NCBI RefSeq assembly: GCF_004011695.2
Contig: NC_082413.1
Span: forward strand, 1,657,001-1,721,000
DNA length: 64,000 bases
Direction of reading: 5' to 3'
Source of the DNA: Ascochyta rabiei
Lineage: Eukaryota > Ascomycota > Dothideomycetes > Pleosporales > Didymellaceae
A program made the translations under genes and the position numbers. Below the pieces are notes generated by a model. That model was not told where the DNA came from. It saw only the letters and a list, made by a program, of their open reading frames with translations, and did no database searches. Numbering within the stretch: the stretch's first letter is position 1; each line of letters begins with the position of its first letter. This document shows positions 12,382-30,520 of this stretch, one piece after another.

Positions 12382-15300
12382 CTACGCAGCATCGCCATTC
12401 TGCGTCTTATTTTTCTTCGCCGCCTTCTCCTTTCTCGCCGAGGGCTTGAACACTGAAACAATCTGACGCATACCGCCGAGATACAGCCACGTGCAAATGA
12501 AGACGACTGCAAAGTTGAAGAAAATGTAGATCCACATGATGCCTTTCGTCTTGTTAGCGAGAAGCCCCTACGCAACAAAGTTTACACGTACCAAAATCGC
12601 GCCAGATATACCGTGGGAACACGTTGAAGCTGGCCGCAAATGCATCGCCGGTGGCGAACTGGCAGTATCCACATGTCCCGTCTGGCTGCGCTTCCACGTA
12701 CCCACCTGCCTGCTGCGCGAACTGCCCAGCATACGTCTGACAGTCTTGGCCGGGTGGGGGAGGAAAGATCGCCAGCTCGTTAGCGTCGCACCGGATCTCC
12801 TGGCCCTGGACTAGCAGCGCGAGGAAGCCTTCAAGAAGGTACTTAAAAGGCGTAAGCCAGTACATCCAGGCCTGCCAGAAGGTGGGTAGACCGGCGTAGG
12901 GAACGACTACACCGCAGAAAGACACGACTGTATGGTTTTAGCATGCTGCCCAGAGCGTGTAGAGGAAAGAGATAGACTTACTGAAAGTGAAGAACAGCGG
13001 CACGAGCAGCGAAGCAAGCAGCTCGTTGGGAGCGAAAGCTGCAATGGCCTGACCAAAGCCAAGGTAAAACATTTCGAAAAGCGTAACAAAGAGCCAGGTA
13101 CTCGCTGCTGTGTAGGTATCACGGGGGAACGCGGGCGGGAAATACCAACAGCACCAGTAGATTGTACCAGCAACGATGCGGTACGGAATCTCACTGAGAA
13201 TGGCCCCCCAAACCCATGCAGTCCACGAGTAAATCTTCGCGTTGCCCTCTCTCGACTCGTAAATCGATCGAATGTTGATGAAACGCGGCTGTAGTTGCTG
13301 GATCAGAGGCGGCGAGATGGTCAGGGTCATGAAGATCGAGAACAATCGGGACTGCATGTCAACTTGTGATTGTCCCAGATTCCAGAAAGTGAACCCGTTG
13401 AACAGGCCAGTGATGATGTGGAGCGTGACAATACCAAGGACATAGTCGGGGTCTCTCCACATCGCCACGAAATTGCGCTGCACAACGGCTAGCCACTGTG
13501 TCATGTAGGGCATGGCGTATGCTCTGTCGTCTTTGGCTTCGTTGTTCTTTGAAGCAGACTTCCGGTTCGCAGCGATGTCCTGGATCTCCTTGCCGAGCTT
13601 CTGGTTCTCCTCGGATTTGGCCCATACATCACCCCAATCCTGGCCCTTATAATCGGGATTGCCGGCACCTATCGCTTCAAGCATGTATTCGGCAGGATTC
13701 TCCTGTGGTGGACACTTCTTGGCCCCGTTGTGCTCGAGGTACTTGAGGAGCTTTTCCGAGTCGTGACCTAGATCGCCAAAATAGACTGTACGACCTCCAG
13801 ACTTCAGCAGAAGAAGTTGGTCGAAATGTTCGAAAAGAACTGCACTCGGTTGATGAATGGTGCAGAGGATAGCCTGGCCAGCGTCGGCAAGCTTGCGCAG
13901 GAAGCGGACGATGTTGAAAGCAGCACCCGAGTCGAGTCCAGATGTCGGCTCGTCAAGGAACATGAGCAGTTCTGGTTTGCTGGCAAGTTCAACGCCGATG
14001 GTCAGCCTCTTACGCTGCTCCTGGTTTAGTCCAGATCCAGTTGTGCCGATGGCAGCGCCTGCAATGTCTCGCATCTCAAGCAGGTCGATAATGGTCTCAA
14101 CGTAATCATACTTTTCTTGTATGGGGGTATCTTTCGGCTGACGTAGGCGTGCAGAAAAGCGCAAAGCCTCGCGCACTGTGCTTGTCGACTCGTGAATATC
14201 CATTTGCTCAGCGAAACCAGTCGACCGTTGGAATGAAGAAGGTAGAGGTTTGCCGTCGACGAGAAAGTCTCCATGTACCACACCGAAGCGAATACGCTGC
14301 GCCAGAGTATTTAGTAGAGTCGTCTTTCCAGCGCCAGAGGCACCCATCAGAGCTGTTAACTTTCCGGGCTTGACGTATCCTTGCACATCCTTGAGTAGGG
14401 TGCGTTCTCCCTTCTCATACGGGATAGTGTAGGTGATGTTCTGGAACGTGAAGATGGTTTCATTCTTTGCAACGCCACCCAGCCTGTCGTCAGAGTCCTG
14501 ACTACCTTCAGCCTTCTCGTTGACTGCAGCAGTCTTGATCTTCCCAGACTCTTCGTCGTTTGGCTTCTGAGTCTCCATGTCCTTTTCGACGGATTTGGGC
14601 ACTTGACCACGCTTGAAAATGGTAACCGCGCCGCCGCCTTTGTTGGGCTTCTGGCTCTCCATACCAATTGCTGTGAGACAAACAAAAAAGATGAACATGC
14701 CTGTGATGATGCCGAAGTTACGCCACAGATGGCTGCGCGAATAACCAAAAGCGGCTTCGGCGTAGTCTGCACCGGCTACAGTCAGTGAACCCGGTCTGCT
14801 ACCTAGAATCGCGCAAGACTGGTATTGCTCCTGTGCACCGGGCACTTGTGGGGCGATGTATGGTGGCGTGCACTGAATTTCGAGGTTGTAGAATTCGTTG
14901 ACCAAGAGGCCTTCGAATCCGTATTGAATAGGGTTAATCCATCGTAACCAACTGAACCAAGGATGCATCTTGCTCGGAGGTATCAAATAGCCGGTATACA
15001 CAACAAGCGCTTGGATGGCGACACCAGTAATACGTGTAGCAATGTCGAGAGATCCTACCAGGGATCCAATGGCTCGGAAGAATGCATACATGGTCATGGT
15101 GATGATCCAAAGGAACAACAGCGAGATGAAAAACTGTGATGCTGTGCGTTGCAGGCTGGCCATAAAGTAGACCACTAAATCGAAGATGACGACCTGGACA
15201 AGGACGAGAGGAACGTCGACGACAGTCTGAGCAATCGCATACGCGGCAGGGCGATAGAAAGAGAAGCTCTTGTGCTTCAGCAGAATCGGTCGACTTTCAA

Positions 15301-17296
15301 AGGCAGAAGTCAACTCAGCCAGAGCAAGAAGTGCATTGAACAGCAGCATGAAGAAGATCACACCACCACGAGGGAAGACACCTGCAGCAGTGTTCGGCAG
15401 ATTGAAGAACAAGGATCCAACGATCAGAGCCTGAAAAAAGATGCCTCCCCACTTGCCACCCAAAGATTGTGGGTCACCAATCATGACCAAGAACTGGCGC
15501 TTAGTACAAGCCATGACTTGCTTGTGGAAGGGCAACGTGAAGTTCTTCTTCTTCGTTGCTTTGGTTGCAGCAGCACGACGGTCCTCCATCATACGCTGGG
15601 TCTCCTTTTCGAACTCCTCTATCTCGGCAAGGTTGTCCTGGTGTTGTTGGCTGTCGAAGAAAGCCTTGCCAAACTGGGCGCCAGTTCGAGGAATACGGTC
15701 TTCGTAGCCGTCCTTGATGTGACGCTCATGATCGTCGGTGACTGACGTCAAGAAATCAGCAGTCGTCCAGCGGTCTGGTTGATGGAACCCTAGGTCCTTG
15801 AAGTATTCCGCAGCACGATCAGAAGGACCAAAGTAACAACATCGGCCCTCATGGATCAAGAGGACCTTGTCAAATAGGTCGTACAGCGACTCGCCAGCCT
15901 GGTACAAAGCAACACTCGTGGAGATATTGGCCATGTTGGTGAGTGATCGCAGACTCTGTACATATTCCAGGGCTGTGGAGGCGTCCAGTCCACGGGTAGA
16001 GTTGTCCCACGATTGTGCGGATGCCTTCGTGATCATAGCCTCCGCGATGGAAACGCGCTTCTTCTCACCACCAGATACGCCACGGACGAACTCGTTACCG
16101 ACCTTGGTGTCCATTGTATGCTCGATCCAGAACAGTTTGGTAACGACACGGAGGAACTCCTTGACGTAATCCGCTCGCGATTCTCCCTCTTTTCGAGAAT
16201 CTTTGCCTGGTGTGCGGGTTTTCAGCGCAAATTTGATCGTATCTTTGACTTTCAGGGTGGCATAGTGGAGGTCATCTTCTGGGTTGTAGAGCACCTCGCT
16301 CCTGTACTTCTTAGCCATCTCGTCAGCATCAGTTCCACCATACTTGACTTGGCCAGTAATCTCTTCATAACCAAACCGTTGGTTACCAAGCATCTTCAGG
16401 AATGTACTGCATCCACTACCAGGCCGTCCTAGAACGAGAAGCATCTCTCCTGGCTTGATGCATCCCGAGAAATCGTCAATCAGTGTGCGAACGGGTGGCT
16501 TTCCAGCAGCTGCTTTAGGTCCACGAGTTACAAGGTTTTTGATGAGCCGTACAGGATTCATGAAGAAATCACCAACCGAGGGCTGCAGCGCGGCCCCAAG
16601 GCCCTGACCTTTGACGGTAAGGTTCTTGAACACTACACCAACATGACGTGTCTTTTCTTCTTCTGATGCTTCCTGACGTGTGTGCCCAAACATTCTTGAC
16701 ATCAGCTTGTTGATCTCATCTTGCTCCTCATCGGCGCTCGATGCAGTAGCTCGTGTATCTCTTCGCCCCAGGCCATTGCTCTGGCTGGTCCTTCTTCTTG
16801 ACAGAAAACGGAAAACGTCCTCTTCAGTCATCGGCTTAGACTGCGTTGACTGTAACGTAGGCCTCGTGACTGACGAAGCTGGCTTGATTGCCGCATAATC
16901 TCCAGGTTCTTCGTGTTCCGAGTCTGAGGAAGAGTCGCTGTGTACAAGATCAGGAACTATCTGTTCTTCGCGCTCCGCCTTCGGCTCCTTCAAAGTTTCT
17001 TCGCTGGATTCGAGAACGCGATTGTCGACAGCATCCGGCGATGGAAATGCTGTACCATTGCTTGATGCTGAGAACAGACCAGATCCTCGTCCACCGTAAT
17101 AACTTGCGCTTGAGGTGTGGAGCGCATTATTGATAAAGGTCCCACCGTTAGCGGTTTCGTGGTGGGTACTGGGTGCCGCTGGAGTCGCAGAATGTGTGCC
17201 AATATGTGAGGGTGGTTGACGTGGCTCTACCGGTGTGTCTACAGAGCGTTCAAGAGTATGAGACCCAGCCGGTGTTGGTGGCTCATTAGATGTCAT
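12382..17296 (-). CDS. PDR-type (ABC-G) multidrug ABC transporter
   Basis: Full-size pleiotropic drug resistance pump of the plasma membrane, expected to export fungicides, plant defence compounds or secondary metabolites. Exons 12982-17296, 12592-12927 and 12382-12542 join in frame to 1603 residues, (NBD-TMD)x2. NBD1 has the PDR-specific degenerate Walker A GRPGSGCST (about residue 290), signature VSGGEKKR and Walker B region ending in STRGLDAST. NBD2 has canonical Walker A GASGAGKTT (about residue 985), degenerate signature LNQEQRKRLTIG and Walker B LLMFLDEPTSGLD. This asymmetry is typical of the family. The last exon codes for the final membrane helix (WIYIFFNFAVVFICTWLYL) and a Lys-rich tail. 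The N-terminal 200 residues are low-complexity and acidic. Substrate cannot be read from sequence. Confidence 0.95.
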
Positions 17297-19419
17297 CTTA
17301 GGGCTCAGGTGTCCCTGCGGTTATCAGATCCCAAAATCTTGAAGTCCGCTGGAGATAATACCGGTACAGGGACGAGCGATCGTTTCACTGGCCAATCGGT
17401 GTGGGTTGTTAGTAGATGAGACAGCGGGCCCTGTGAACGATGGTGTAAAGGTGATTAAGATTCCGAGATGTCTACAGGTAGCGAGGATCCCGACCAAGTT
17501 GTTTATTAAAGCGTACAAAGTCACATTCGAGAAGCACCCCTGCGCGTACCAACACGCTGCTGCCGCCATTTTGGACGCGTTTAGTTTGTTGCATTGTTTA
17601 GAATTGGGAAGTGGTGTCGTCATAGTCGCGTTGTTGCATGCAGTGTCGGTGCTTGACCTTCGCGTCGGTGCTTGTAAAGACCGACAACCTAGATGCAGCC
17701 CCCCAATCTTCGATCGATTGGCTTTCTCGTCCCTTCAGCCTCAATGCTTGTCTCCGCATTCAGGCAAAGACAGACGTCTCACGGGTTGCAGAGGCCCCGG
17801 AGTCCTTTAACCGAAGACATGGCACCCTCTCACTCGCCCAGTTCCCCATCCACGAATCGCGATCTCGACATTGCCCAGAAGTGAGATGTGATCCTCACAG
17901 GGATGCACGATAGGGATGACGATGCCAATGCTTGTCTTTAATCCTACTGTGCGCCTCCTATGAAGACGTCATCAACAATGCGTGTCATTGCCAAGTACTC
18001 CGCGGTAAACCAACTCTTCCCAGTTTTCCTCGTCGATGTTAAGTCTTGAGCCTTCACGTTTTCCGAGATTCTGCAAACGTCTATGTCTTGACCCTGTAGT
18101 CGCAATTACGATGCGTACCTCCGCGTTTGGCGCTCGAAAACTCAGACATTAATCTGTTCAATGGTGGTACAAAGACGCATCAGCAACAACCTGTCTTGAA
18201 AGCCACAGTACGCCCGCAAAGCAAGGACCATTTGAAAAAAAGCCAACCACAGATAGTACGCTAGGGTCCACAGGTAGCATATGTCACATAATGAAAGTGG
18301 AGCTTAATCACAAGGTAGAAATAGTAAACGTCACTTCACACGAATACAGTATAGAATGCAACTGCGGATAAAGCGTGTCGTAGACGCCAACACATTGAGA
18401 TGCGGCTCTGGCAGAGCGATGGTGTGTTCTGAAACGGTGGTGGCATTCGTGTGCAAACCATGGACATGGTAGGGGAGCACGGCTGATGATAGTGCTGGGT
18501 GAAATGAGAAACGATTTATGTGTGTATTGATGCTGAAGTGCAAGTCAAGGTCGACGCAAATTTTGGCAACGCCAAAACCACTTTAACTGCGGACTTCAGC
18601 TGCGCTCTCGCTCAGTCTCACCATGACTCAGTCTTATATGCTACCCCGTTCATGCCCCGGTCGCTGTTCCAATGTTCCAAACCCCTTCCATTGGTCAAGC
18701 GTCCTCACCACCCCACCTCGAAAGCCAGCCACGCCACAAGGAAAGCGTGATGGTAATTAAAAAATGGCAAAAAGAATATCGTCAGCTAAGGAATTCGAAA
18801 ACCCTAGTCAAATTTTGCTGTTACCTTCAATGCTTAGCTGTTGCCAATCTTCCTTCAACTCATATTCATCTCTTTTTAATCTTGTCAATGCTTGTCTTGA
18901 TATGCTGCCGTTACTTCTTTGCGTCCAGTAGGGGCGATAGCAGGCAGATTAACGGTGTGTTGGACACCGAATTATTCAGTGTCCTGAAAGCCGACGGTGC
19001 TCCATAGGGACTGAGAGTGGGTTATGCAAATGGCTACGTAGAGCGGCATCGCTCCACTAAGTCCAGAACAATGTTGACTTGCGACCAGTAATGTTGCACG
19101 TCTGACCCTCTCAGTGCACGTTGGAAATTTTCTTTCTTAGTATTGATCGCGTTGCCTATATCTTATTGTTGATGCTTTGCAACGACAAAACGTGCTTTTG
19201 CGAACGTCGAAGTTCTGGTAGAGAGCACGCACTTCAGATATCAAATACAGTGACAAGACAGCGCGTTGCGCGGGAAGCATGGCACAGATGTTGATGTAGG
19301 TACGAATAGTCTGTGATGCTGTGATAGCACGTGTGGCCGAATGCTTGGCTCTAGCGCGCGGGACGTGCTTCGGAGAAAGAAAGAAAGAACAAAAAAAAGA
19401 TCCATTCAGATGTACGGGC
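17297..19419. other. 2.1-kb spacer without a recognised gene
   Basis: Upstream region of the ABC transporter gene followed by AT-richer DNA toward the tRNA. Short open frames only; none shows splice signals or family features. Confidence 0.5.
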
Positions 19420-19425
19420 AAAAAA
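19420..19425 (-). terminator. RNA polymerase III terminator of the tRNA gene
   Basis: Six A on the plus strand, i.e. T6 on the transcribed minus strand, starting 6 nt beyond the discriminator base of the tRNA. A second run (T8) lies at 19391-19398. Placement is what is expected for a Pol III gene. Confidence 0.8.
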
Positions 19426-19451
19426 GAATGTTGTCGGCTGAGGGATTCGAA

Positions 19452-19501
19452 CTTGTACATGTTAGTAATTGATATAATATAAGGTGATGAGTGAAACGTA
19501 C
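19452..19501 (-). other. Extra 50-nt GT-AG intron at the T-stem/T-loop border
   Basis: Starts GTACGT, has ACTAAC before position 41 and ends ACAAG. It separates GAGGG from TTCGAATCC, cutting the Pol III B-box, although the intron's own last bases recreate AGTTCGAATCC, a weaker B-box. It resembles the D-loop intron in length and in three shared motifs. Confidence 0.7.
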
Positions 19502-19524
19502 CCCTCGCAGGGAAACCCTATGAG

Positions 19525-19573
19525 AATGCTCAACCGCTAATGCGGATGAAGCTTAACAGCATTGCTGGTGTCG
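19525..19573 (-). other. Canonical anticodon-loop intron of tRNA-Leu(CAA)
   Basis: 49 nt directly after base 37. It contains TTGAG, able to pair with the CTCAA of the anticodon loop as in substrates of tRNA endonuclease. The exact 3' cut is uncertain by a base or two. Confidence 0.7.
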
Positions 19574-19595
19574 CTTGAGTCACACGCCATAACCA

Positions 19596-19645
19596 CTGGT
19601 GTGATGTTAGATCATGCTTGATATATGGAAGCGAGTGATGCTTAC
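19596..19645 (-). other. Extra 50-nt GT-AG intron in the tRNA D-loop
   Basis: Starts GTAAGC, has CTAAC at intron positions 36-40 and ends ACCAG, exactly like the spliceosomal introns of nearby protein genes (44-55 nt). It separates TGGCCGAG from TGG, cutting the Pol III A-box. Confidence 0.7.
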
Positions 19646-19947
19646 CTCGGCCAAACCGACTTTGATGAAATAAAGAAGTTTTATCCAATATAATATGGGT
19701 AGTAAATTAGACACTTGCGAAAGTGTGTGGATTCGTTTGCATGTGCCTCGATTCTAGCACGGCCGCCGTTTGGAAGTGGGGCATTCGCCTTGTATTGGCC
19801 AATCGGCCAATCCCACACATCAGAATTTTACACAATCGCATTGTTCATTCAAAGTTACACTAGTGCAATTTTGAAGTTCACCTGTCATTATAGCGATGTA
19901 CGAGGTATGTGATACCCATTCCGTCAGGACATATCGTGAACAGAATA

Positions 19948-21828
19948 TTAGAGTGGGACAGCAGCGCCATCACCCCTCAAATCGCTTCCACCGCTCCAGA
20001 CAGTCAACCCATCATCTGTATGCCTCCGAATGATCTGCCCGCGACCGAACATGCCTCGTCCGTACCCACTTAGCTGCTTGACATTATGACCCAGCGCTCT
20101 CAACTCCTCGACGACTTTGGCGTCGATGCCTTCCTCGAGGTATACTGTCGCGTCTGTCAGCTTGCCATCAGTGCTCGGCATACCGGCGCCAATGCAGAAG
20201 CGCGGCGAGTCAAGTGCCGCTTGCGGGTTCAGTTTGAAGACTTCCTGGTTCAGCAGGACCTGCACGTGACCCTGGGGTTGCATGAAGCCGCCCATGACGC
20301 CGTAGACAGAGTGCAAGCTACCGTCACTGTAAGTCGTAAGACCGGGGATGATGGTGTGGTACGGTCGCTTCCGGGGCGCGAGCTCGTTGGGGTGTCCCTT
20401 TGTGAGATTGAAGTTTGCACCGCGGTTCTGCAGAGTAAAGCCGCAGCCCTTGGGGATAATGGCAGTGCCAAAGCCGCCGTAGTTACTGTTGATGAACGAG
20501 ATTCCATTGCCTTCCTGGTCAGTGCAGCAGAAATATACGGTATCGCTTCGGAGGTGAGCCGGCGAGCCGTGGACTGGGGTCTCGGCGGCCTTCTTAGGAT
20601 CAAAGAGTTTGGCACGTTCAGCGAGGTACTCTTGCGAGATAAGCTCGGCAGATGGCACCTTGACAACATTCGGGTCGGTGACAAACCAGTGCGCATCTGC
20701 AAAGGCAATGCGGAGAGCGTCGATGGTGGCGTGGAGATGCTGGGCTGTGTTGTGGTCTTTCAGGCCCCACTTCGAGATCTTGCCTTGCTTTTCAAGCTCC
20801 TGGATGATACCAAGTGCCATCAGTGCGACGATGCCTTGGCCATTTGGAGGGTGTTCCCAAAGCTCGATGCCACCATTAGTAGACTCACCAACACCTTGGC
20901 CGGTATACTTGAGCGAAATAGGGTCTACAGGCTCAGAGCCAGTTTCCGCGTGATGCTTCAAATCGTCCAGGGTGAGGTAGCCGCCAAGATCGGACACAAC
21001 CTTTACAAGCTGCTCAGCGACTTCACCCTCGTAGAAGCCCTTCTTGCCATGCTTTGCAAGCAGTTTGAACGTGTTAGCAATGGTAGGGTTCTTCATGACT
21101 TCACCAGCCTTCGGCGCCCTACAGCCGTCCTTTGCTGATGAGTCCTTTTTCAGCATCTCATGTCCGTTTGGTGATGCTTTCCTGAGCGCTGATTCACTTT
21201 GCGCCCACTGTATTGAAATCAGCATATGCCGCACACGCGCATTTCAGGATGCTCACAAATGTGGCGGATAACTCAGAAACAGGGAAGCCGTTTTCAGCCA
21301 GGTCGATAGCTGGCGCAAGAATCTCTTCCAGGCTCACTTTGCCGCTGCCGAAGCGCTCGTGGCAATCGACCCAACCTGCGGCTGCACCAGGCACTGTCGC
21401 TGCGTGTACGCTGTCCATGGGGATCTCGCCGGTCTCGCCATCTTGGATCTTGAGGTCTTTCCTGATTCTGTCAAGTGTGACGGCTGCGCCAGAGCGTCCA
21501 GATCCGTTCATAGCGGACACCTTCTTGGTCTTGGCATCGTAAAAGAGACAGAACATGTCACCACCGATGCCAGTGGACCCAGGCTCAGTGACGTTGATAG
21601 CTGCTGCAACGGCCACTGCTGCGTCCTGTTCCTAATCAGCATACTATCGTTCACAGGGACAGCATTACGTCATACCGCGGCATTGCCGCCTTTCCGCAGG
21701 ATGTCGATGCCAGCAGCGGTTGCGAGAGGCTGAGTGCATGAGACGATTCCTTTCGTACTGTGTACAACGGAGCGGCGACTGGAAAAGTGCACAAACTGAG
21801 GTTCAGGGTGGGGGTAAACGGTGGCCAT
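19948..21828 (-). CDS. Gamma-glutamyltransferase family enzyme
   Basis: N-terminal-nucleophile hydrolase that self-cleaves and transfers or hydrolyses gamma-glutamyl groups (glutathione or related amides). Exons 21676-21828, 21257-21631 and 19948-21207 give 595 residues. Family marks: GGNAA and [15 protein letters not shown] near the N-terminus, [18 protein letters not shown], and the cleavage/nucleophile region [11 protein letters not shown], where the Thr of SDT is the expected nucleophile. SNYGGFG and [12 protein letters not shown] follow in the small subunit. The SDTVYF variant resembles the bacterial YwrD-type branch rather than classical GGT1/ECM38. There is no signal peptide, suggesting a cytosolic enzyme. 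An upstream in-frame Met (21906) exists; 21828 was chosen because the family homology begins soon after. Confidence 0.9.
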
Positions 21829-27520: not shown

Positions 27521-30520
27521 TTGCTGAGTCTTAGTGCTACGTTCCTCCGCCGACAGGGTCCATGGCCTAGCAATGCACAGATGACATATAAACCGCGAAC
27601 TACCTTCGACATGCCTTTCAGATCTTCAGAGCAGTTTTATATTACTCAATTTAACGCGATGACACCAATGACCATCGCTCCACTGCTGAAGGAAGCCGCT
27701 GAGCTGAAGATCATTCAGTATGACCAATTGAAACAAGGCTTCAAGACTCGCTATGGCATCGGTATTACACAGCCTATCGATGTTGCAATTCATGAGAGAG
27801 TTGCTGCCCTTGTGAAAGACATCCAGCAATTTGACTCCCATCTCGAGAACGACGACGACCTCACGATTATGGCACGTTATGTCGAGCAAACTGAGAACGA
27901 GAACTGCATTTCCAACGAAAAACTTCAGAAATTCGAGGAGCAGCTGCTGGAAAAACTGCACAAACAAACAACCCGTTTCGAAGCTACGTCACTTCATCTG
28001 GATCTGATGAGGGAAGCGATGAACGCCGACCATGCTGTCGCATCTTCACCTACGAAGCATGAACATGTCTCTTCAGCGTTAGACGACGACTTTGAAGTTG
28101 TCGAAAATGGACTTGAAGAACTGCTGGAAACATTCGAGGCCGAAACATTCACCGTGAAGAACGTCGACGTCGAGATACTTGAAAGTTATCTTGCACACCT
28201 CATGGAAGGAGACGGCAGCTCGCATGCGCTGTCCAAGTTGCGCGAAAGTATGCATCAGTATGGTAACGATCTACTTGAAGGAATCTCCGAAATCGAGGAA
28301 GACGAGCTCGAGTGGTGTATCATGGACTTGCTCAAGAACGACCTTATCAGTAACGAGAAGAAGAAGACTCTCGAGGGCTACATGCAGAACAGCTTCGCGA
28401 TCAAAGAGCTTCTCGGTGCAATCAACCTGAAATCTATCCGCCACTGGAACTGGACGAACGTGGACAAAGGACTGCCCGTCACCGCTCGCCAGGATGCCGA
28501 CGGCCAACACCACATCACCGTTGAAGAAGACCTCGGTGATATGCTCTTCTTGCACTGCACAGCTATCGGCTGGGCTCAGAAGCTCAAAAGCTGCCTCTCC
28601 GATTATGCTAAATACCATTCTCTGCTCGACAGGAGAGACATTTGTCCTGAAAAACAAAAAGAGCGAGAGTTCTTCCTTGGGATCATGCCGTTCGAACCCG
28701 TTGAAGGCAACTGCCTTAACTGTAAGATCTACTATCCCCATATGCCGCCTCCCCTACCCCCAGGGTATCCACACGATGTCTGCGCCATACCAACTAGGAG
28801 AAAAAAGAGCAAGGTCTGCTACCCACGACACGTACTGCCTCCGCCTCCACCCCCTCACATCATGATGCCTCCACCCCCACCTCCGCCACCTCCAGTGTTC
28901 TACGGCAGCCTCGACGACGTAAGGCACGCAATCTACATGCGTGATTTCTTCATGTCCAGACTTCCAGTTCAAGACGGCTGTAGACCTAAGTTCGTGCATA
29001 CAAAGGAGATTCAAAGCAGCCTGATCAAGACGCTTGCTGCTGAGATCAAACTTCGCATGACCTTCGACCAGCAGTACGGCTGTTCGGTGGTCGACTTCAA
29101 CTCGCTGGCATCAGCACTACCGCATCAAACAGTGCTTGCAGTTCTGAAGTTTATCGGGGTACCGGAAGCATTCGTCGACTTTTTTGCCCGGTTCCTCGCA
29201 GCAACCTTGAACCTTGGTCCTGCAGTGCGTGGTACACCGGACCGCGTCCTTACTCGGGCTTGCGGTGTACCTGATCGCCATGGGTTGGAACTTCTGTTCA
29301 CAGAAGCGGTAATGTTCTTTGCTGAGCTAGCTGTCAGCAGGAAGACGGGTGTGCACCTCTATCGTCTCGGAGCCAAATGCTATGTAGTGGGCGCCCGGGA
29401 ACAGCGCGAACAAGCTTTGCGTGTGCTATCTGCATTCTCGCACCACACAGGTTTGGGATTTGAAAATTTTTCCACGCACTCTGAACACATCAGCATTGGA
29501 TTCCTGGAACTGACAGCGAATAACGTCAGCATCAAAAGTTCCATGGTTGAGGCCTATGCTCATCGCGTGAAGACGCAGCTTTCGAAACAATCTACAGTAT
29601 ACGATTGGATACGAGTCTGGAACAACAGCATTGGAAACTACACTTCTCATCTTTTCGGCCCACTCGCAGAGGTTTTCGACCAGTCGCATCTGGAGGCTAT
29701 CAAATCTGCTCACAAGCGTATCTTCGATATCGTCTTGGAGGGAAGCAGCCTGACTGATTACGTCAAACACATGCTGCGCACTCGTTCCGACTTCGCTCGC
29801 ACGTGTCCACCTCTTACTCTTGAAGCTATGATATATCTTCCCCAAGCATTCGGTGGCTTGGGGGTCAAGAACCCGTTCGTCAAGTTCAACCTTGCACGCA
29901 AGATGATTGCGGACCCCAACACCATCATCCAGGGATATCTTGATGCGGAGACCAGTTACTACGAAGCAGCGCTCAGGAACTGGTCTGCGCTCAAACCAGA
30001 ACACATCTCGAAGAAGCTCAGTAGCATTTTCCAGAACAATGACGAAGCAATCACTGCTGCTCTGGGCGCAGACTGTGCAATCGGCACCTTCATCTCCAAG
30101 GAGTCCCTCACTACACATCGCGAATACGAGGCATTTCCACGTCTTCCATTTTCTCTCCTTCGAGATGTCCCGCCACCGCCACCGCCTTACGATGGAAACA
30201 AGCTAACGCCTCATCTTGACCTTACGTACCAGACACTCCTCCTCGAGCCTTTCGACGACATCACGGCCAGCGAGCGCGTCAAAGACGATGTGCGGAGTCA
30301 CGGCTCACGGAAACGCTGGGACCAGCTGAGCCCCGAGGACAAGTGGGTGCTGCAACTGTACGGCGATGATTGTCTCGAGAGGTACGGGACATTGGAGATG
30401 TGGTTCGAGAAGTGTATTCCGATGTACTGCATGTCCGTTGTCAGGGGCGTCATTTGGGAAGACGACGGTGATGACGACGATGATAGTAGTGTGAGTACTT
30501 ACATGACCTCGGTAGCGTGA
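27521..30520 (+). CDS. Reverse-transcriptase-related (rvt-like) cellular protein, catalytic pair apparently lost
   Basis: One uninterrupted frame of 999 codons. The layout fits the single-copy fungal rvt genes, which derive from reverse transcriptases but are not mobile: a charged helical N-terminal half, an RT-like core, and a conserved C-terminal block (here KRWDQLSPEDKWVLQLYGDD...ERYGTLEMWFEK). In the core, VVDFNSLASALPHQTVLAVL matches RT motif A with Asp 525 kept. Downstream, LYRLGAKCYVVG (residues 613-624) sits where I expect the motif C Asp pair; it reads G-A-K-C there. Two proline runs (about residues 440-463 and 885-895) and an Asp-rich tail are further features. The family call and the expected Asp position are from memory of the family. 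The start could instead be a Met at residue 21 or 31. No flanking repeats are seen, so it does not look like a live retroelement. Confidence 0.6.
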   Translation: MLSLSATFLRRQGPWPSNAQMTYKPRTTFDMPFRSSEQFYITQFNAMTPMTIAPLLKEAAELKIIQYDQLKQGFKTRYGIGITQPIDVAIHERVAALVKDIQQFDSHLENDDDLTIMARYVEQTENENCISNEKLQKFEEQLLEKLHKQTTRFEATSLHLDLMREAMNADHAVASSPTKHEHVSSALDDDFEVVENGLEELLETFEAETFTVKNVDVEILESYLAHLMEGDGSSHALSKLRESMHQYGNDLLEGISEIEEDELEWCIMDLLKNDLISNEKKKTLEGYMQNSFAIKELLGAINLKSIRHWNWTNVDKGLPVTARQDADGQHHITVEEDLGDMLFLHCTAIGWAQKLKSCLSDYAKYHSLLDRRDICPEKQKEREFFLGIMPFEPVEGNCLNCKIYYPHMPPPLPPGYPHDVCAIPTRRKKSKVCYPRHVLPPPPPPHIMMPPPPPPPPPVFYGSLDDVRHAIYMRDFFMSRLPVQDGCRPKFVHTKEIQSSLIKTLAAEIKLRMTFDQQYGCSVVDFNSLASALPHQTVLAVLKFIGVPEAFVDFFARFLAATLNLGPAVRGTPDRVLTRACGVPDRHGLELLFTEAVMFFAELAVSRKTGVHLYRLGAKCYVVGAREQREQALRVLSAFSHHTGLGFENFSTHSEHISIGFLELTANNVSIKSSMVEAYAHRVKTQLSKQSTVYDWIRVWNNSIGNYTSHLFGPLAEVFDQSHLEAIKSAHKRIFDIVLEGSSLTDYVKHMLRTRSDFARTCPPLTLEAMIYLPQAFGGLGVKNPFVKFNLARKMIADPNTIIQGYLDAETSYYEAALRNWSALKPEHISKKLSSIFQNNDEAITAALGADCAIGTFISKESLTTHREYEAFPRLPFSLLRDVPPPPPPYDGNKLTPHLDLTYQTLLLEPFDDITASERVKDDVRSHGSRKRWDQLSPEDKWVLQLYGDDCLERYGTLEMWFEKCIPMYCMSVVRGVIWEDDGDDDDDSSVSTYMTSVA

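Follow-up and report, generated by a model that had tools for sequence, protein, structure and literature searches.

Background

The introns of tRNA genes are divided into three classes, those removed by the tRNA endonuclease, group I introns and group II introns. The ordinary eukaryotic tRNA intron occurs once per gene, lies only in the anticodon loop and is cut by the tRNA endonuclease, which in eukaryotes measures from the mature tRNA body; ectopic tRNA introns have also been described from red algae. In eukaryotes other than the one studied here U6 snRNA is made from a Pol III gene, in other fungi its intron is removed by the spliceosome, and U6 introns have been put down to accidents of splicing in the active site of the spliceosome, of which U6 is part. 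We know of no place for GT..CTAAC..AG signals in the archaeal tRNA-intron system.

Genes for U6 snRNA with mRNA-type introns are found in fission yeast and other fungi, and fungal U3 snoRNA genes, those of Dothideomycetes included, hold spliceosomal introns and exist as intron-bearing and intron-free paralogues; in 2017, U3 and U6 were described in the same source as the sole small structured RNAs known so far to be often interrupted by introns (PMC5832005). Genes for archaeal tRNAs may have two or three introns per tRNA outside the canonical place, according to two sources (PMC8450103, PMC4090602), and the former presents tRNAscan-SE 2.0 as covering non-canonical tRNA introns in archaea. The word "spliceosome" is absent from the text of a review of tRNA introns (PMC4090602). 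Searches of the open-licence PMC literature, covering titles and abstract openings, often among the best matches of longer listings, showed no paper that announced tRNA genes with spliceosomal introns, and a search with exact phrases gave 0 papers. The machinery discussed below is known and its use on tRNAs apparently new; if RNA agrees, the introns described here would be, to our knowledge, the first spliceosomal introns of tRNAs.

The present study concerns a candidate tRNA-Leu(CAA) gene in a 64,000-nt stretch of the Ascochyta rabiei genome (contig NC_082413.1, positions 1,657,001 to 1,721,000; hereafter the window), in which an ordinary anticodon-loop intron is accompanied by two segments that look like spliceosomal introns, and the further tRNA genes of this genome that share the arrangement. 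These genes resemble U6 in encoding small structured RNAs, probably made by Pol III, with short putative spliceosomal introns; unlike U6, which belongs to the spliceosome, tRNAs stand outside it, and here they already need the tRNA endonuclease. They resemble U3, which is not a tRNA, in that a structured non-coding RNA is interrupted by what appear to be ordinary spliceosomal introns and has paralogues with and without them. The likeness to archaeal tRNA genes lies in the number and unusual places of the introns, and the difference in their removal, which in archaea is by endonuclease at bulge-helix-bulge motifs.

Methods

Candidate introns were recognised by a scanner that demanded GT[ACG]NG, CT[ACG]A[CT] and AG and allowed a branch spacing of about 5-25. 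In the window, one or two candidate GT..CTNAY..AG segments were deleted on both strands, and the resulting 736 constructs were given to ARAGORN. The genome was searched with the B-box patterns GGTTCGANTCC (88 matches) and GGTTCRANCCC (64 matches), both of which miss genes with a split B box, the window gene among them. Searches that combined a B box with a T run gave 55 rows against 6 control rows and 72 rows against 11, some of the 55 rows repeating a site at shifted offsets. Every new nuclear site given by the two B-box patterns (65 and 51) was examined, together with 21 and 17 sites of the T-run lists; loci were submitted to ARAGORN both intact and with candidate introns deleted, and odd loci were then read by eye. 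Three genes (L148, L251, L253) were assigned by eye via homology, and L082 came from a separate set of loci. A genome run of RF00005 was dropped as a census, having scored 63 of 1588 candidates only, so that the isotypes absent from it carry no meaning.

An anticodon-arm pattern matched the genome 74 times; 30 matches were taken as loci, and the other 44 include the window gene. For comparison with mRNA introns, mRNA-type candidates of the genome were collected that have open frames on both sides (n = 74, some overlapping); the same search on reversed sequence returned 21, so that roughly a quarter of the 74 may be false. This open-frame version was used instead of a strict-motif search, which gave 46 matches against 17-22 in shuffles.

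Results

The tRNA-Leu(CAA) locus

At the locus, the unspliced DNA of the window was recognised as a tRNA neither by ARAGORN nor by Rfam at the gathering score. When the two outer segments were deleted, ARAGORN reported a type-II tRNA-Leu(CAA) whose anticodon loop holds an intron of 49 nt and whose mature length is 80 nt. The initial annotation had proposed three removable segments of 50, 49 and 50 nt here, and these were found as proposed, on the minus strand, together with the T6 terminator (Table 1). Its account of the mature 80-nt form was borne out by ARAGORN for the anticodon CAA, for A73 and for the acceptor (7/7, one G-U), T (5/5) and anticodon (5/5, one G-U) stems; the D-stem, given there as 3/3, has four pairs in the ARAGORN structure, one of them G-U, and a long variable arm is also present. 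Intron removal yields the complete cloverleaf with anticodon CAA that is expected of a nuclear tRNA. When the bare RNA of 80 nt was folded thermodynamically, the stems of the acceptor, the variable arm and the T arm were retained, and those of the D and anticodon arms did not form. Only 2 of the 736 constructs made across the window produced an ARAGORN call, both at this locus: the full tRNA-Leu(CAA) and a partial one obtained with a single segment deleted.

Table 1. Parts of the tRNA-Leu(CAA) gene and adjoining elements, in window coordinates
Feature	Coordinates	Strand	Description
tRNA-Leu(CAA) gene	19432..19660	-	229 nt, three introns between four exons
TATA-like element	19687..19696	-	ATATTATATT, 27-36 nt before the start of the tRNA
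Exon 1	19646..19660	-	tRNA positions 1-15, acceptor 5' strand and start of A box
Spliceosomal-type intron 1	19596..19645	-	50 nt, GTAAGC..CTAAC..CAG, between positions 15/16 in the D loop
Exon 2	19574..19595	-	Remaining D arm, anticodon stem 5' strand, anticodon CAA
Ordinary anticodon-loop intron	19525..19573	-	49 nt, boundary movable by one base
Exon 3	19502..19524	-	Anticodon stem 3' strand, long variable arm, T-stem 5' strand
Spliceosomal-type intron 2	19452..19501	-	50 nt, GTACGT..CTAAC..AAG, between positions 53/54, T stem and T loop
Exon 4	19432..19451	-	T loop through A73; exact match unique in genome
T6 run	19420..19425	-	Pol III-type terminator

The middle intron alone lies at 37/38, where endonuclease introns belong, the two outer segments falling outside that place; it contains TTGAG, complementary to the loop CTCAA as read from the sequence. 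Both outer segments have the GT..AG ends, GTANGT-like 5' site and CTRAY branch distance of U2-type introns, and the resemblance to mRNA introns noted at the outset holds, with the branch A of CTAAC 11 nt from the end of intron 1 and 10 nt from the end of intron 2. Intron 1 splits the A box and intron 2 the B box, and the gene accordingly departs from the uninterrupted A and B boxes of Pol III type 2 genes. On either side stand an ABC-transporter open reading frame (12938-17296) and a gamma-glutamyltransferase open reading frame (19948-21234). Elsewhere in the window, the plus strand holds a 999-aa open reading frame (27521-30520) for which Pfam gave no match at E 0.001. A phosphoenolpyruvate carboxykinase exon of the window shares 96% identity with a protein listed for Didymella glomerata, and 94% and 92% with Curvularia and Pyrenophora proteins, most likely the mark of a Pleosporales fungus.

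Copies and fragments of tRNA-Leu(CAA)

An intact Leu(CAA) gene elsewhere had been named beforehand as part of a refutation. None was found, and the 229-nt gene matches the 40.9-Mb genome (23 contigs) at its own place only, in a search that a gene differing by more may have escaped. Its 3' exon is matched exactly at one place and with 3 mismatches at six others, and a scan with intron removal at these seven loci (at most 3 mismatches) revealed no second tRNA. Nineteen of the 30 anticodon-arm loci were checked for a downstream B box, and none had one; scanning of all 57 loci L049-L105 with intron removal recovered the window gene and the Pro gene L082 only.

A 31-nt stretch on the minus strand of the window (18769-18799), about 630 bases from the gene, is 84% like the Leu(CAA) 3' exon and trailer and has a T run; it is perhaps a duplicated fragment, or a product of chance. 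Positions 18781-18799 were considered as a second Leu(CAA) and rejected: a wider alignment scored 68.5, below the best of 100 shuffles (82.5), which makes the stretch at most a 3'-end fragment.

Survey of the genome

The initial annotation had supposed Leu(CAA) to be exceptional, and this did not hold, since at least 24 more tRNA genes of the genome show the same. The survey yielded at least 25 tRNA genes, the window gene included, with one or two spliceosomal-type segments each and 32 segments altogether. The Leu members are Leu(CAA) of the window, Leu(TAG) L112 and Leu(CAG) L224; the nine Pro members are Pro(AGG) L082, L222, L233 and L244, Pro(CGG) L148 and L236, and Pro(TGG) L243, L251 and L252; the five Gln members are Gln(CTG) L109, L134, L157 and L219 and Gln(TTG) L128. 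There are three Ser(GCT) genes (L234, L253, L254), and the class is completed by Val(TAC) L240, Ala(CGC) L246 and L250, Arg(ACG) L255 and Met(CAT) L265. As in ordinary eukaryotic nuclear tRNA genes, an anticodon-loop intron (37/38) is present as well, in 24 of the 25. ARAGORN recognised 24 of the 25 mature forms as tRNAs with the anticodons given here, and Met(CAT) was called once the boundary of its ordinary intron had been moved by one base.

By script alone, a tRNA appeared after intron removal in 20 of 111 loci without a plain tRNA, all of them members of the class. Under the same criteria, 50 dinucleotide-preserving shuffles of the same 158 loci gave no ARAGORN call in 22448 constructs, and an earlier shuffle version with slightly different criteria gave none in 8990. 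The Rfam tRNA model at its cut-off matches 3 of the 25 genes, so that most of them would escape a standard tRNA search and, if related fungi share the introns, their tRNA counts may be underestimates. Plain tRNA genes occupied 83 loci, an incomplete census with no Gln, no Pro, one Leu(CAG) and five Met(CAT) genes, and in the same incomplete census no nuclear Phe, His, Cys or Thr(AGT) genes were seen.

Intron signals

All 32 segments start with GTANG[TCA], and 30 end in AG; CT[AG]A[CT] with its branch A 10-12 nt from the end is likewise present in 30, the motifs being partly selected by the scanner's demands and the narrow spacing not. Lengths are 50-59 nt in 30 segments and 48 and 68 nt in the other two. 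The mRNA-type candidates have a median length of 54 nt, and 39 of the 74 have their branch A at 9-12 nt from the end. Insertion sites were seen in the D arm (10/11, 11/12, 15/16, 19/20, 24/25), adjoining or inside the anticodon stem (26/27, 27/28), inside the anticodon (34/35) and in the variable and T region (47/48, 53/54, 55/56).

Intron-intron similarity exceeded the shuffled maximum (12) solely in same-site pairs of related genes. One different-site pair scored 12, equal to that maximum, and the segments do not behave as introner-like elements; introns of different sites share nothing beyond the splice signals, which argues against recent copying of one element. In Pro(TGG) L243 and L251, the segments at 24/25 have GTAAGT and CTAAC and end in AT (L243) and TG (L251). 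Deletion at precisely these ends restores the tRNA, and the exon sequence fixes the boundary, with no sliding; the two may represent damaged introns, splice sites of a rare non-AG type or errors in the sequence.

Paralogues

The intron-free Leu(CAG) gene L031 equals the spliced form of L224 across all 81 nt. The four Pro(AGG) genes have identical exons (72/72); in L082 and L222 the 11/12 intron stands alone, and L233 and L244 have a second one at 26/27 that is absent from the other two. Likewise, Ala(CGC) L246 and L250 are identical in their exons (72/72), and a 15/16 intron is found in L250 only. Exons identical to those of L251 accompany, in Pro(TGG) L252, an AG-ending intron at another site. 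Both copies of Pro(CGG), L148 and L236, have an intron between C34 and G35 that splits the anticodon. Exon differences amount to 4 of 72 positions between L243 and L251/L252, 9 of 72 between L236 and L148, and 4 of 81 between Ser(GCT) L234 and L253/L254.

The four Gln(CTG) genes are identical at 71/71 exon positions and at 12-13 of 13 positions of the anticodon-loop intron; their GT..AG introns at 11/12, 51-59 nt long, align at 43-49 identical positions, five of the six pairs needing gaps. This pattern looks like selection on the exons that is looser on the introns, and gene conversion may also have been the source of the identical exons.

Transcription marks and U6

A TATA-like element lies at -60 to -12 in 17 of the 25 genes, against 43 of 76 for plain tRNA genes and 5% for random places; eight of the 25 have no such match, and for three of the 25 fewer than 60 nt upstream were read. 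All ten genes that were found without T runs as bait (the window gene, L082, L109, L112, L128, L134, L148, L157, L219 and L224) have a run of at least 6 T closely downstream, the T run having been part of the search for the remaining members. Both marks, the downstream T run and the upstream TATA-like element, agree with Pol III type 2 genes and with the plain tRNA genes here, and on their strength the class is read as probably transcribed by Pol III. The lack of TTTT in the segments is uninformative on Pol III, since such runs are rare in the mRNA intron candidates too (5/74).

A U6 snRNA gene of this genome (L227:1510-1722; G000:C9:1076009-) has two GT..AG introns of 66 and 53 nt, and an intron-free U6 gene on another contig (L226) is the same as spliced L227 up to and including the T run.

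Discussion

Judged from sequence, the window gene is very probably a functional nuclear gene for tRNA-Leu(CAA) and belongs to a set of at least 25 tRNA genes of this genome, each with one or two short spliceosomal introns. The findings suggest that this fungus needs the spliceosome for several of its tRNAs, besides the tRNA endonuclease for the ordinary intron. We also consider it likely that, in this fungal lineage, the spliceosome is obligatory for all nuclear Gln and Pro tRNAs and for several single-copy isoacceptors, Leu(CAA) included, the introns interrupting the D arm, the T arm or even the anticodon and the endonuclease being required as well. That the window gene may depend on both machineries had been proposed from the locus alone, and the class of 25 genes, with paralogues that lack individual introns, supports the proposal.

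In the mechanism that we envisage, Pol III would transcribe the whole gene with the aid of the upstream TATA-like element and the remnants of the A and B boxes and would stop at the T run; the spliceosome would excise the GT..AG introns, like the U6 intron of other fungi, and the anticodon-loop intron would be taken out by the tRNA endonuclease and ligase. Since the tRNA body is unformed until the introns of the D and T arms are gone, an order in which the spliceosome acts first appears the likelier.

That the tRNA splicing endonuclease cuts out the extra segments at atypical sites, in the manner of archaea and red algae, is very unlikely. In its favour are the ordinary intron that 24 of the 25 genes also have and the several endonuclease-removed non-canonical introns per tRNA of archaea, as two sources describe (PMC8450103, PMC4090602); against it stand the GTANG starts of all the segments and, in 30 of 32 each, the branch-like motif at 10-12 nt and the AG ends, which are like those of mRNA introns of this genome. 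The segments moreover disrupt the very tRNA body from which the eukaryotic enzyme measures. Nor does it seem at all probable that the genes are dead, with inserts piled up in pseudogenes while other, intact genes are in use. The odd 3' ends in L243 and L251, the nine exon differences between L236 and L148 and the incompleteness of the census would fit such decay, yet most paralogues have identical exons though their introns diverge, ARAGORN called 24 of the 25 mature forms and Met(CAT) after a one-base shift, and the search turned up no intron-free Gln or Pro gene among the 83 plain loci and no other Leu(CAA).

An explanation that keeps the introns spliceosomal and changes the polymerase is unlikely as well: the precursors would come from RNA polymerase II, its tail coupling transcription to splicing. 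Transcripts of Pol II are the normal place of spliceosomal introns, and the A and B boxes of the window gene are split, as this explanation would have it; it is opposed by the T runs in ten of ten genes found without that bait, by TATA-like elements about as frequent as at plain tRNA genes, and by U6, a Pol III gene elsewhere, which bears introns here too. We retain spliceosomal removal from probable Pol III transcripts as the preferred reading.

If this reading is true, spliceosomal introns would form a fourth class of tRNA introns beside the endonuclease, group I and group II classes, and protein synthesis in this fungus would rely on the spliceosome via tRNAs as well as mRNAs. Standard tRNA finders would then report such genomes as being without Gln and Pro tRNAs. 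If the genes are made by Pol III, they would offer a clean test of spliceosomal intron recognition without coupling to Pol II, for which the paralogue pairs that have and lack a given intron, with exons otherwise identical, are natural material.

As a minor observation, a second copy of the 3' end of the Arg(ACG) gene L255 lies downstream of it (about 300-330 of that locus), with a T run of its own, and looks like a partial duplicate without the intron.
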